NCBI GenBank assembly: GCA_903822825.1
Contig: CAIJQQ010000012.1
Location: 1-64,000, forward strand
Direction of reading: 5' to 3'
DNA length: 64,000 bases
From: an uncultured Burkholderiales bacterium
Lineage (GTDB): Bacteria; Pseudomonadota; Gammaproteobacteria; Burkholderiales; Burkholderiaceae_C
Made by a program: the position numbers and the translations under genes. The notes beneath the pieces were generated by a model. That model was given only the letters and a program-made list of their open reading frames with translations. It did no database searches and was not told the origin of the DNA. Positions 32,540-37,889 of this stretch are shown here, piece after piece. Positions within the stretch are counted from its first letter, which is position 1. Every line of letters starts with the position of its first letter.

Positions 32540-33754
32540 TCAGTCGACCTTGGCGCCGCCCTTGAACCAGCGGCCCACCAGCTCACGCTCGGCGTCGGTG
32601 ATGCCCGTGGCGTTGTTCATGGGCATTTGGCGGCTCACCACCACTTGCTGGTAAATACCCTGCGCATGGGTTTGGATGCCCTCGGCGCTGTCCAGCCGAA
32701 CGTTCTTCATCTGTACCGCGGCGCCGTGGCATGAGTAGCACCGCTGCTCGATGACGGCCTTGACTTCGGCAAAGGCCACGGGGGCCTGCCCATTAGGCGC
32801 AGCGCTCGAAGGGGCCGCAGGCCTGAGAGCCACGATCACGCCCAAAATCAGCAAGCCTCCCACCACCGCAAAAGGCAAAGGGTTCTTGGCACGGCCCAAG
32901 TGGTAGCCATGGCGTTGTACAAAGAACTGGCGGATCAATGCGCCCGCAAACATCATCACGAACAGCAGCACCCAGCGTTGTTCGTGGGTGTACAAAAAGC
33001 TGTAATGGTTGGACAGCATCGCAAAGATCACAGGCAGCGTGAAATAGGTGTTGTGCACGCTGCGCTGCTTGCCGCGCTTGCCGTGGATGGCCAAGGCGTT
33101 GGCGTCATACGCTTGACCACTGGTCATGGCCGCCACAACTTTGCGCTGGCCAGGAATGATCCAGAAAAACACGTTGGCGCTCATGCTGGTGGCGATCATG
33201 GCCCCCACCAACAAAAAGGCCGCTCGTCCAGCAAACAACTGATTGGCCAACCACGATGCGAAGGCAATCACCAAGATCATCAAGCACGCGACGATCAACT
33301 CGCCGTTGTTGCGAAAACCAAACAGGCGGCAAATGGCGTCGTAAACAAACCAGAACGCCACCAAAAAACCCAATGCAGCGGCTCCAGCCACCACAGGGGT
33401 CCAGTCCATCAATGATTTGTCAATCAGGAAAGTTCCAGCATTCCAGAGGTAGAGCACGGTGAACAGCGCAAAGCCACTGAGCCAAGTGGAATAGCTTTCC
33501 CAATAAAACCAGTGCAGCTTGGTGTGGATGACTTTCGGGGCCACCATGTACTTTTGCGGGTTGTAAAAACCACCGCCATGCACTGCCCACATCGCACCAC
33601 CTACGCCCTTTTCGAGCAAGTCTGGAGAGTTGGGTTTTTGCAAGTTGTTATCGAGAAAGACAAAATAAAACGAGGAACCAATCCAGGCGATGGCGGTGAT
33701 GACGTGCACCCAGCGCAACAACAGATTGGCCCACTCCAACAGATACGTTTCCAT
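32540..33754 (-). CDS. puuD: urate hydroxylase PuuD with C-terminal cytochrome c domain
   Basis: PuuD is a membrane-bound urate hydroxylase that oxidises urate to 5-hydroxyisourate and passes electrons through its haem c. The 404-residue protein has an N-terminal WVHVITAIAWIGSSFYFVFLD segment, about eight hydrophobic helices, and a C-terminal cytochrome c domain with CYSCH near residues 345-349 and a later Met (SRQMPMNN) as likely axial ligand. The xdhC gene lies just upstream in the same direction, which fits purine breakdown. Confidence 0.93.
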   Translation of the reverse strand: METYLLEWANLLLRWVHVITAIAWIGSSFYFVFLDNNLQKPNSPDLLEKGVGGAMWAVHGGGFYNPQKYMVAPKVIHTKLHWFYWESYSTWLSGFALFTVLYLWNAGTFLIDKSLMDWTPVVAGAAALGFLVAFWFVYDAICRLFGFRNNGELIVACLMILVIAFASWLANQLFAGRAAFLLVGAMIATSMSANVFFWIIPGQRKVVAAMTSGQAYDANALAIHGKRGKQRSVHNTYFTLPVIFAMLSNHYSFLYTHEQRWVLLFVMMFAGALIRQFFVQRHGYHLGRAKNPLPFAVVGGLLILGVIVALRPAAPSSAAPNGQAPVAFAEVKAVIEQRCYSCHGAAVQMKNVRLDSAEGIQTHAQGIYQQVVVSRQMPMNNATGITDAERELVGRWFKGGAKVD

Positions 33755-33929
33755 GAAGGATCTCCAACCAGCTCACCACCGCGGACTCTGTGAGCGGTCA
33801 TTCGGTCGCGAACATGAAGCCTGTGGGTTTCTTGCGCCGCTGCGACCAGTGCACCGAAGTGTATACAGTTTTGAGCTCTGAATCCAGCTGCCCACCCGCA
33901 AAGGGATGGGGGAAACCAGAGCACTGGCT

Positions 33930-34727
33930 TCAGAGCTTTCGCAACAGTTGTGCCGCCACAGACACTGCAATGACCTCAGGCTCTTTGCCTTCAATGCCGC
34001 TGACGCCAATGGGGCATGTGATGCGCTTGATTTCTGCCTCAGCAAAACCCCGAGCTTCGAGCCGGTGCCTGAATGTGGCCCATTTGGTCTTGCTGCCAAT
34101 GAGCCCCACAAAGGGCAAGTCATCCCGCTCCCGCAGCCGCCTGAGGCAAGCGATCACCACATCGAGGTCTTCGGCATGGCTGAAGCTCATGATCAGAACG
34201 CGGCTGCCCGATGGCAGCTCGTTCACGGCCATGTGCACCGGGCTGGAGTGCTCGCACACCACCTGAGGCGGGACATCAGAAGGAAAAATCTCGTCTCGGC
34301 TATCGATCCATCGCACTGCAAATGGCAAAGGTGAGAGCACTGTCACCAGCGCTTTGCCAACATGCCCCCCGCCAAACAGTGCCAACGGGGCTCGCGAAGG
34401 CGCCAGTTGGGCTTGCAAGTCGCTCACATCGCGGGCGTCCTTGAGGCTGAAGTTCAGCTCCACAGAGCCGCCGCAGCACTGGCCCAGGCTGGGCCCCAGG
34501 ACATGCTGCAAGGACAGCACTTGCGTCTGATCCGCGAGCAGTTGGCGGGCGTGGGCAATGGCTTGGAATTCCAGATGCCCACCGCCGATGGTGCCGCATT
34601 CGCCTTCTTTGAACACCACCATGGAGGTGCCAGCACCCCGCGGGACCGAGCCACGTGTGGATTTCACCGTCACGCAAACAGCAGGGCCGAGCGCCAATCT
34701 TTGCAGGGCTTGTTCAATCCAATTCAC
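33930..34727 (-). CDS. xdhC: xanthine dehydrogenase accessory protein XdhC
   Basis: XdhC binds the molybdenum cofactor, assists its sulfuration and inserts it into xanthine dehydrogenase. The 265-residue product shows VKSTRGSVPRGAGTSM near the N-terminus, GGGHLEFQ, CCGGSVEL and the Rossmann-type ALFGGGHVGKAL followed by WIDSRDEIFP. The structural genes xdhA and xdhB are not in the window and would be expected just to the right or elsewhere; the next gene upstream is unrelated. It is followed by puuD after about 175 empty bases. Confidence 0.93.
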   Translation of the reverse strand: MNWIEQALQRLALGPAVCVTVKSTRGSVPRGAGTSMVVFKEGECGTIGGGHLEFQAIAHARQLLADQTQVLSLQHVLGPSLGQCCGGSVELNFSLKDARDVSDLQAQLAPSRAPLALFGGGHVGKALVTVLSPLPFAVRWIDSRDEIFPSDVPPQVVCEHSSPVHMAVNELPSGSRVLIMSFSHAEDLDVVIACLRRLRERDDLPFVGLIGSKTKWATFRHRLEARGFAEAEIKRITCPIGVSGIEGKEPEVIAVSVAAQLLRKL

Positions 34728-35376: not shown

Positions 35377-37251
35377 TCACTCGGCCTTGGGAGCGGCTTT
35401 GGTTTTCGGGCTGCTTGTTTTTTTGGTGGCCGTTTTCTTGACCGCCTTTGGCTCTTTCACAGCCTCGGATTTCTGGGAAGTTGCACGCGTTTTGGCCACC
35501 ACGACGGTCTTGCCAGGTTTTGTGGTCTTCAAGGGCGCTGGCTTTTTCACCACCATGGCTTTTTGAACAGGCAACACCGCCTTCGCGGGAACTGACTTTC
35601 TCGCAGTTGATTTCACGCCTGCAGTTTGGATGTCGACGCTTGCACTCTGTATTTGCTTCCACAGGTGCATCTCCTCAGGACTCAAGCGCCTTTGCTGCGT
35701 GGCAACTTTCTCGAATCGACCCGCGTGAGTCATGATGCCCAATTGCCTTATCTGGGCAATCAGCACCTTGTAATGCTCCACGGCGTGTGCGGCATTTTCA
35801 GCGATTTTGTGCAAAGGCAAGACAGAGACATCCTCCTTGAGTTCACGCTCTTTGCGGGCTTTGACGATCAGTCGATCGACCTCTTCTTCACTCAAGTGCA
35901 AGCGCTTGGCTTCGCGCTTGATCTGATCGCGCTCATCCTCGTCCAACACGCCATCGGCCAGCATTTCGTACAACTCATTCTTGAGGGTTTCCCGCTCAAT
36001 TCGAAGCTGGTCACTGAAGGCCGAAGACAGCAAGGCCGCAGGGATGGCAAAGATACCGATCCCCAACAAGGCCAGGATGATCGTCATCAAACGACCCATC
36101 GGTGTGACCGGAGAAATATCGCCGTAGCCCACCGAAGCCAAGGTGATGACTGCCCAATAAATCGATTGAGGTATGTTTTCGAACTTGTCAGGCTGGGCTT
36201 CATGCTCAAACAAATAGCCTAGGCTGGCGGTCATGATCACCAGCAGCAGCATGACGAAGGCCGATGCAGCCAACACGGGCCACTCGCGGGCAATCACCCG
36301 GGTCAGTGTGGCGGTCGCACCGGTGTACCGGGTGAGCTTGAGCAATCGCAGCAAACGAAACACCCGCAGGAAACGCAGGTCAAACAAATGGTGCAGGAAG
36401 GCTTCCAAAAAGAACGGCAGCACGGCCAGCAAGTCAACAATGGCACTGGCGCTCTTGGCATGCCGAATGCGCCCCCAAACCGAATTGGCAAAGCCAGGGT
36501 TCTCCACACAGCAATACAAGCGCAGGCAATACTCCACAGTGAAAATGCCCACCGCCACAGCATCCAATATGATGAACTCCATGTTGAAGATGTAGTGCAA
36601 GCTCTGCACCGACTCCAGCACCACCGCAATGACAGACACGATCACCCACACCACGATGAAGGTGTCAAAAATGTGGTGCAGGGTGCCGCCAAATGCACTC
36701 GGATAGACCACCGCATGGACTCTCTGGCGGAAAGTGCGGCCCCGGTTGACCTCCACAAACTCATGCCAGGCAGGAATCAGGACACGGAACAATTTGAGGA
36801 TTCGCAGCAACCGCAAAAACCGCAAAACGCGCAAATCAACAGGCACAAATGCCTGCAAATAAAACGGCGCGACAGCCAGAAAGTCAATCAGGGCAAACGG
36901 GCTTTTGACATAGCTCCATCGCTTGTGACGGGCTTGTACGAATTCATGGTCTTCAGGCGCCAGATACAAGCGCACAAGGTATTCAACGGTAAAAATCGCC
37001 ACTGAAAAAACATCAAAGGCATGAAACCATGCCTTGTACGGATTGAATACAGCGGGTACTTGCTCCAGCATCAAGGCCATCAAATTGGCCACAATAAGCA
37101 AACCCACCCATTGGTCAATGGCCTTGTGGTAATTGCCTTGCAGGTGCGGGTCAAGTAACCAGCTGTACAGCCATTTGCGCATCGGCAAATCGGATGGGAT
37201 GTGAACCTTGGGTTCGCTCAGGCTGAAGTGGGGGTCGATGGATGGTTTCAT
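35377..37251 (-). CDS. predicted K+ channel with two voltage-sensor domains and one pore
   Basis: The 624-residue membrane protein repeats an S1-S4 voltage-sensor unit. Unit 1 (about 46-157) has FTVEYLVRLY in S2, ALIDFLAVAPF in S3 and an Arg/Lys ladder in S4 (139-157), but no pore follows. Unit 2 (about 194-308) repeats this with FTVEYCLRLY, AIVDLLAVLPF and LRFLRVFRLLRLLKL, and leads to S5 (324-347), a filter TLASVGYGD at 370-378 and S6 (386-410). The filter marks a K+ channel. The cytoplasmic tail has an acidic helical motif (427-462) and a Lys/Ala/Pro-rich histone-H1-like end (547-624). The ATG used is 11 bases after the stop of the upstream gene; a GTG lies three codons earlier. Confidence 0.85.
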   Translation of the reverse strand: MKPSIDPHFSLSEPKVHIPSDLPMRKWLYSWLLDPHLQGNYHKAIDQWVGLLIVANLMALMLEQVPAVFNPYKAWFHAFDVFSVAIFTVEYLVRLYLAPEDHEFVQARHKRWSYVKSPFALIDFLAVAPFYLQAFVPVDLRVLRFLRLLRILKLFRVLIPAWHEFVEVNRGRTFRQRVHAVVYPSAFGGTLHHIFDTFIVVWVIVSVIAVVLESVQSLHYIFNMEFIILDAVAVGIFTVEYCLRLYCCVENPGFANSVWGRIRHAKSASAIVDLLAVLPFFLEAFLHHLFDLRFLRVFRLLRLLKLTRYTGATATLTRVIAREWPVLAASAFVMLLLVIMTASLGYLFEHEAQPDKFENIPQSIYWAVITLASVGYGDISPVTPMGRLMTIILALLGIGIFAIPAALLSSAFSDQLRIERETLKNELYEMLADGVLDEDERDQIKREAKRLHLSEEEVDRLIVKARKERELKEDVSVLPLHKIAENAAHAVEHYKVLIAQIRQLGIMTHAGRFEKVATQQRRLSPEEMHLWKQIQSASVDIQTAGVKSTARKSVPAKAVLPVQKAMVVKKPAPLKTTKPGKTVVVAKTRATSQKSEAVKEPKAVKKTATKKTSSPKTKAAPKAE

Positions 37252-37262
37252 GCATCCCACTT

Positions 37263-37889
37263 TCAGAATTCAATTTCACCAACGCGAATTGGATCACCGC
37301 CCTTGTCGCAAAGCGTCAGGCGCAACTGGATCTTCTGGCTCAACATTTCGCCATCGCTCAGCAAGGAGGCCACCACGGGGACTGTCGATCCCGGCGGCGT
37401 GGGCGTGAGTTTTTCGAGCACAAAATTGCCCGCCACTGTGAGGTCGGTTTTGTCGCATTTGGGCACCAGCCGAACCTGCGCGCCTGAAAAAGGATTGATG
37501 TGTGAGGCCCAAGGCCCATTGGCCTGGGTCAAAGCCTTGAAGCAAGCCCCCCATCCGGGGCCTGTCGCGGCAGTGGCCGGCACTGGCACTGCATTGCCAA
37601 CGTCCTGGGCTGAAGAAGCCTCGGAAGCAGTGGCCACGGCAAGGGCCTGACTGGCACAAGGGGCAGGTTGAAAACCAGCTGTGAGTCTGTTCGCAGAAGC
37701 GTTGCCCAACCACTGTAACCAAGCTTCGCCAGAACGCTTGCTGGTTTCAATTTTCAAACCTTCTTGGTAAGACAAATAGCCCACCCAAGAGACAAACACA
37801 ATCACACCGAGCAGCATCACCCCAAAGAGTTGATCCATGACATTGGGCATACCGGAAGTGGGCTTCACTTCTGTATTTATATTTTTCAC
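37263..37889 (-). CDS. membrane-anchored protein of unknown function, operon partner of the channel
   Basis: The 208-residue product has one membrane segment at about residues 20-42 (LFGVMLLGVIVFVSWVGYL), a short helix, an Ala/Ser/Val/Pro-rich linker (about 78-112) and a small C-terminal domain with paired cysteines (CFKAL and PKCDK; later LTLCDKGG). By charge the large part should be periplasmic. No family was recognised. It ends 11 bases before the channel ATG in the same direction, so both are probably on one transcript and it may be an accessory subunit; that is inference from position only. The 180 bases upstream are AT-rich and hold no gene. Confidence 0.65.
   Translation of the reverse strand: MKNINTEVKPTSGMPNVMDQLFGVMLLGVIVFVSWVGYLSYQEGLKIETSKRSGEAWLQWLGNASANRLTAGFQPAPCASQALAVATASEASSAQDVGNAVPVPATAATGPGWGACFKALTQANGPWASHINPFSGAQVRLVPKCDKTDLTVAGNFVLEKLTPTPPGSTVPVVASLLSDGEMLSQKIQLRLTLCDKGGDPIRVGEIEF

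Follow-up and report, generated by a model that had tools for sequence, protein, structure and literature searches.

The tandem-sensor channel gene and its parts

The window, that is, the whole stretch of 64,000 nucleotides from an uncultured Burkholderiales bacterium analysed here (contig CAIJQQ010000012.1), carries on its reverse strand a gene for a Kv-type channel of 624 amino acids with tandem sensors (35377..37251), which was recognised from its open reading frame (ORF), Pfam matches and relatives. The gene starts with the ATG at 37251, the GTG at 37260 being a possible alternative start, and its stop codon occupies 35377-35379. Immediately upstream on the same strand lies a gene for a protein of 208 amino acids (37263..37889), the stop of which is 11 bases before the channel ATG; this partner gene (37263-37889) had been missed in the preliminary description of this DNA.

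Within 35377..37251 the reverse strand encodes, in this order, a first voltage-sensor domain (VSD1), a linker, a second voltage-sensor domain (VSD2), a pore, C-terminal helices and a lysine-rich tail. VSD1 (residues 42-162, 36766..37128 of the reverse strand, as are all the parts below) is defined by a block pLDDT of 85-95 and by conservation in 78 sequences, and its model helices are 42-63 (S1), 73-100 (S2), 118-135 (S3) and 140-168 (S4 and an extension), with E63, F87, E90, R94, D123 and D139 as key residues and R141, R144, R147, R150, K153 and R156 as the S4 ladder. A basic linker between the sensors (residues 163-189, 36685..36765) contains a short helix at 174-182 and is devoid of an S5-pore-S6 segment. 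VSD2 (residues 190-312, 36316..36684), delimited by Pfam, conservation and the model, has the key residues E213, F237, E240, R244, D273 and D291 and the S4 ladder R293, R296, R299, R302, K305 and R308. The pore domain, consisting of S5, pore helix, filter and S6 (residues 319-425, 35977..36297), is based on the Ion_trans_2 match and low-confidence model helices, and the selectivity filter SVGYGD (residues 373-378, 36118..36135) is read from the sequence. The C-terminal helical region (residues 426-544, 35620..35976) follows from the model and Pfam, and residues 431-474 in it have a weak, sub-cut-off resemblance to TerB in Pfam. A role in anti-phage defence was considered and set aside; the lone weak PADLOC match (PDC-S48, E 2.3e-4, residues 415-472) was read as this TerB-like segment.

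The Pfam family Ion_trans matches the channel in two stretches (E 2.4e-47), of which the best is 192-415, and the genome scan gave, in one open frame, an Ion_trans match on S1-S4 only (profile positions 2-111 of 241) and another on the full unit (1-236). The pore family Ion_trans_2 has a single match (334-412, E 2.6e-18).

The sensor-sensor-pore plan among relatives

Six short peptides of the window protein were compared with genome contigs, giving 208 related stretches, the best 80 of which were used. The record titles of these best 80 of 208 are mostly Comamonadaceae, Limnohabitans or Burkholderiales, many of them metagenome-assembled genomes (MAGs) with lake-like sample names, and a few are discordant (Alphaproteobacteria, Methylococcaceae). 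Since the best 80 are the closest relatives, conservation is gauged here inside one family.

In the fetched loci 215 ORFs matched a sensor or a pore, namely 88 sensor-sensor-pore, 120 sensor-pore and 5 sensor-only ORFs, and one gene (L023) split by a stop into a sensor-sensor part and a pore part. The 88 tandem ORFs include the window copy (L084) and two copies of a second tandem paralogue about 50% identical (hereafter T2, the tandem relatives of the window type, at least 63% identical, being T1); 86 of the 88 are distinct and 7 reach a contig end. From the start of one sensor to that of the next there are 148 residues in 78 ORFs and 149-151 in the other 10. A pore after the first sensor occurs in 0 of the 88 sensor-sensor-pore ORFs of the fetched loci, in agreement, together with the one Ion_trans_2 match, with the initial claim that only the second unit is followed by a pore. 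Furthermore, the order sensor-pore-sensor-pore occurs in 0 of the 215 ORFs examined, so that the pore in each repeat which marks two-pore and two-repeat channels is not present.

Both sensors have the S2/S3 charge-transfer residues and the S4 R/K ladder of Kv-type sensors, and the GYGD filter stands between S5 and S6 as in a Kv-type pore, in the form SVGYGD rather than TVGYGD; the six-transmembrane (6TM) rule of one sensor per pore is broken, there being two sensors per pore. The filter is SVGYGD in 87 of the 88 tandem ORFs and SIGYGD in one, and most Kv channels have Thr at the place of this Ser. A preference for K+ is assumed from GYGD. The filter of bacterial Nav channels is TLESW, and a Nav channel was ruled out by SVGYGD.

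Conservation of and selection on both sensors

The S1-S4 motifs which the preliminary description had quoted as repeated are present, and VSD1 and VSD2 of the window channel are identical at 46 of 119 aligned residues; across the 88 tandem ORFs the identity between the sensors is 36% on average (range 30-41%). The alignment score of the two is 195, and 300 letter shuffles gave a mean of 16, a standard deviation of 5.7 and a maximum of 38. Because letter shuffles lose the make-up of membrane helices, the positions kept in 78 sequences are the stronger evidence of homology. For these, 77 ORFs scoring more than 600 bits and covering residues 40-480 were aligned with the window protein, split, truncated and T2 copies being excluded. 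The S1 E, the S2 F/E/R, the S3 D and the S4 R/K positions are common to both sensors across the 78 sequences. In VSD1, E63, E90, R94, D123, D139, R147, R150, K153 and R156 are invariant (78/78), F87 is kept in 77, and R141 and R144 are kept in 73 each, the remaining five having H and K, respectively. In VSD2, E213, F237, E240, R244, D273, D291, R293, R296, R299, R302 and K305 are found in 78/78, and R308 in 76 (K in 2).

In the comparison with L004, the nearest relative, the omega values are 0.060 (VSD1), 0.021 (VSD2) and 0.006 (pore), and VSD1 and VSD2 are thus shown to be under purifying selection; for the other five relatives, several segments have reached or almost reached saturation at synonymous sites. 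In addition, dN is higher for VSD1 in five of the six relatives compared with the window (nearest relative, 0.088 versus 0.011). Such faster change would suit a VSD1 that is a structural domain, keeping the sensor fold to dock the partner or to aid assembly and immobile under voltage. However, between 73 and 78 of the 78 sequences retain the S4 charges of VSD1 and the matching countercharges, which would exceed the need of a scaffold, and the preservation of the charges argues for voltage sensing by VSD1, so a structural role is considered unlikely. It may also be asked whether VSD1 itself conducts protons or cations beside the central K+ pore, like Hv1 or as an omega pore, because a poreless sensor is the plan of Hv1-like domains. 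Hv1 is marked by an Asp in S1 and a motif in S4. Against a conducting VSD1, the charge-transfer residues of Kv-type sensors are complete in it and its R/K ladder is uninterrupted, and by eye its S4 does not look like the Hv1 motif; such conduction is regarded as very improbable.

The tandem plan might also be an artefact, in which two genes were fused by a frame error or a pore segment was lost, and broken copies do exist: L156 (1550-3380, from another genus) has a frame change in VSD2 and L023 (5863-7554) a stop between VSD2 and the pore, either of which may be due to sequencing error or decay. A frame error is excluded nevertheless, because 88 ORFs have the same plan with a spacing of 148-151 residues and VSD1 is under purifying selection (omega 0.060). 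The charges kept in 78 sequences likewise refute both a frame error and a lost pore, and carriers of the tandem gene include the single-contig genomes G006, G1086 and G1111, so that an artefact is hardly credible. Two S1-S4 sensors and one pore in a single chain are real.

Structure model

With 42 rows of aligned tandem proteins (alignment A1) as input, AlphaFold2 gave a channel model with a mean pLDDT of 72.8 and a pTM of 0.56, the block means being 85-95 for VSD1, 73-93 for VSD2 and 53-76 for the pore, and below 50 for the last 80 residues. Its helices are S1-S4, the linker helix 174-182, a second S1-S4, the S4-S5 helix 311-322, S5, the pore helix and S6. The model has ten membrane helices, as had been predicted (about ten), and it folds VSD1 as a confident four-helix bundle, which bears out the proposal that the first unit is a four-helix sensor. 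Because of the pTM of 0.56 and the poorly modelled pore, the placement of VSD1 relative to VSD2 is not readable from the model. Foldseek gave 329 matches in the PDB, the best 50 of which are titled Kv4, KCNQ, Kv1 and Kv2 channels; among the matches listed, the closest PDB entries are KCNQ4/5 and Kv2.1 by sequence and Kv4.2 and KCNQ1 by fold. Sequence matches in the PDB numbered 221, and in the best 60 of these 221 the top stretch lies inside residues 185-457, outside VSD1.

The upstream partner

The partner gene stands immediately upstream on the same strand in 74 of the 84 tandem ORFs with sufficient flank, whereas 10 are without a recognisable copy (two of these ten being T2), and the remaining 4 of the 88 are too close to a contig end; for T1 genes on genome contigs only, the corresponding numbers are 67, 8 and 4. 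When flanking ORFs were grouped more coarsely by BLAST, the most frequent neighbour was the partner, found at 52 of 80 loci, in every case upstream on the same strand and at a median distance of -3. Of the 23 genus genomes that have T1 complete or as a fragment, 22 contain it, the exception being G055, and so do 2 of the 37 others, namely G035, in which it runs to the contig end, and G057, in both of which no tandem gene was found. Furthermore, in G962, G1086 and G1111, which include two further families, it is placed upstream of the tandem channel, and the order sample of 300 genomes has it in two, G000 and G962, which are both tandem-positive. The close tracking of T1 by the partner, and its absence upstream of T2 in the two cases examined, would also suit a VSD1 kept for docking, the structural role mentioned above.

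Four cysteines are invariant in 38 rows of the partner alignment, and the partner model (pLDDT 89.8) has four strands and two short helices besides one long helix at the N-terminus. Neither the window protein nor its L155 counterpart has a Pfam match, the search for a PDB fold gave no convincing match (best E 0.23), and 38 partner members gave only weak and scattered matches in NCBIfam (best E 0.0029, one member). The long N-terminal helix is presumably a membrane helix and the cysteine-bearing domain would be on the periplasmic side. The partner is a candidate auxiliary subunit of the tandem channel, and this channel variant probably has its own helper subunit.

Distribution

A full-length T1 gene was found in 21 of 60 genus genomes and fragments in two more (G031 and G055), with the T1 alignments in G008, G015 and G042 crossing stop codons. 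The family sample gave the tandem gene in 4 of 200 genomes (G000, G139, G242 and the frame-broken G235), as judged from matches to E 1e-30 only, and in the class sample of 274 genomes only G000 spans both sensors at the E 1e-30 cut-off. For the order and phylum samples a profile of the sensor-sensor junction (alignment A4) was used, which is fully spanned in 4 of 399 order genomes (G000, G962, G1086 and G1111, from three families) and in 2 of 398 phylum genomes (G000 and G1086); the remaining listed matches are pieces only, as is expected of single-sensor channels. In these genus-to-phylum samples the tandem plan was seen only in three families of one order, and highly divergent versions could escape; judging from named relatives, the order should be Burkholderiales. 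The carriers include freshwater bacteria. Among them are the Limnohabitans records 2KL-17 (L006) and T6-20 (L013), neither of which is labelled as a MAG and which we take to be cultured strains, so that experiments in a host may be feasible.

Origin of the tandem sensors

In a tree of VSD2, pore and C-terminus, T1, T2 and a group of single-sensor sister channels are each supported groups, with support of 97/94 for T1 plus T2 and of 100/100 for T1 plus T2 plus the single-sensor sister. All VSD1s sampled from tandem proteins make up a single clade (100/100), and VSD2 is placed with the single-sensor sister (support of 100/97 to 100/99). In the larger tree the closest relative of this group of VSD2 and the sister is VSD1 (94/78), and in two smaller trees there is no resolution among the single-sensor channels. 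A constraint placing VSD1 and VSD2 together against the sister was not rejected (p-AU 0.119 and 0.208). The idea that a sensor domain was duplicated holds as far as the two sensors are related, but the trees settle neither its source nor its timing: they would fit VSD1 being either an internal copy of VSD2 or an import from a related channel, and its gain either before or after the split from the single-sensor sister. The linker motif N.GR.FRQK recurs at the N-terminus of the sister, and there is similarity just upstream of this motif in the sister which was not seen by eye in the N-termini of 20 other single-sensor channels. As a suggestion only, these two features would fit a loss of VSD1 in the sister.

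Comparison with known channels

The tandem channel resembles canonical Kv channels (Kv4, KCNQ, Kv1/2 and the bacterial single-sensor Ion_trans Kv channels) in the charge-transfer centre, the ladder R-R-R-R-K-R, the S4-S5 helix and GYGD, but these have one sensor per pore unit and the tandem channel has two. The single-sensor sister (391-417 amino acids; L088-L092, L164 and L165) is 48-49% identical over VSD2, pore and C-terminus in the genus and shares the linker motif, but is without VSD1. In the accessible text of PMC7576140, two-repeat channels of protists are described as eukaryotic 6TM-6TM proteins with a pore in each repeat; they are alike in having two sensors per chain and a low identity between repeats, whereas the first unit of the tandem channel is poreless. 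According to the same text TPC consists of two 6TM units in tandem, so it also has two sensors per chain, unlike the tandem channel, whose first unit is S1-S4 only, and in the fungal TOK a second pore module was added (PMC7576140), which is likewise a Kv-type unit with an extra module per chain, but the tandem channel gains a sensor, not a pore. A channel of the two-sensor, one-pore plan was not found in the open-access literature among the matches listed (subscription papers and preprints being outside this scope), and within that scope the plan is still undescribed in bacteria, as had been supposed. In the accessible part of a review on voltage sensors (PMC13095418), the terms 'tandem', 'two VSD' and 'duplicat' are absent.

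Proposed function

From the sequence features, the tandem channel is fairly probably a K+-selective Kv-type subunit in which VSD2 would gate the pore as usual, VSD1 would be a second, modulating sensor and the upstream protein an auxiliary subunit. Four tandem subunits would form one pore, and by analogy with ordinary Kv channels VSD2 would drive the gate through the S4-S5 helix. VSD1 would lie outside VSD2, move its own S4 charges and act on VSD2 via the helix of the linker between its S4 and the next S1; the sole covalent route from VSD1 to the pore is this linker helix and S1 of VSD2. The upstream protein would assist as an auxiliary subunit with its cysteine-bearing domain in the periplasm. 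The channel would then have eight sensors, which might make the voltage response steeper or two-step. A single sensor of well-studied Kv channels moves about three charges, so with eight coupled sensors the gating charge could be roughly doubled; a loose coupling of VSD1 would give a two-step response instead. The most likely role would be control of the membrane potential by K+ flux.

Somewhat more tentatively, and with the balance slightly against it, these proteins may constitute a distinct class of bacterial Kv channels, with eight working sensors around one pore, a dedicated auxiliary subunit with a single membrane helix, and an outer ring that sets a second threshold (two-step or band-limited) rather than only adding gating charge. 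It has long been asked how many sensors can control one pore, voltage-gated channels having a single sensor for each pore unit. The tandem channel, a natural subunit in which two conserved sensors are joined to one pore, makes this question testable, since either sensor can be removed or neutralised separately. Moreover, a prokaryotic Kv channel would have an auxiliary subunit in the co-inherited orphan membrane protein.

Other channel genes and neighbours at the loci

Downstream channel genes were classed by similarity, and 59 T1 loci on genome contigs have a downstream flank of 2,200 bases or more. In 22 of these 59 loci the tandem gene is followed by two single-sensor genes in the same orientation, and neither is present in 37; among 20 T1 loci with shorter downstream flanks, 5 have one or both. 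Over all loci, the filter of the first downstream type (33 ORFs) is TSGYGN in 27 and TAGYGN, TSGFGN and TSGWGN in 2 each, and that of the second type (28 ORFs) is SGWGN in 25, AGWGN in 2 and unclear in 1. By eye, these GYGN- and GWGN-type filters are one residue shorter than TTVGYGD and have Asn replacing Asp. The altered-filter pairs, often mutually overlapping (L096 3150-5032, L155 8826-10707, L179 4106-6030 and others), may be subunits of a heteromeric channel that differs in selectivity.

The same-strand pairs in 22 of 59 loci, as well as the single-sensor TTVGYGD ORF that overlaps the partner ORF in L176, could mean that the tandem subunit functions chiefly as part of a heteromer whose other subunits have a single sensor, the GYGN and GWGN types among them. 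This is judged improbable, because 37 of 59 loci have neither altered-filter gene, the sole other PF00520 match in the window genome (89% complete) is weak and reads as a pore-only channel, and the pair in L179 stands without an adjacent tandem gene; a pore made of four tandem subunits is preferred.

Several loci are rich in channel genes. The cluster L155 4177-12438 (about 8.3 kb) contains T1, T2, a GYGN/GWGN pair, a Nav-type channel (TLESW), another K+-type channel and a DUF4337 gene. In L176 2473-5506 (G962, another family) the single-sensor TTVGYGD ORF and the overlapping partner ORF are followed by the tandem channel, and L072 (1860-4983) and L073 (1875-4979) each have two Nav-type (TLESW) ORFs near the tandem gene on the opposite strand. 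In addition, T1 genes often adjoin genes of nitrogen catabolism (for example, window 32543-34727 and L011 7663-8499). As raw counts for the T1 flanks, urate oxidase was found at 13 and XdhC at 10 of 80 loci, the window being in both sets, and UreD at 23 of 80, downstream on the same strand at a median distance of 49 bases; 44 of 80 loci have at least one of six families, namely urate oxidase, XdhC, UreD, an ABC permease, an NMT1-like binding protein and an M20-type hydrolase.
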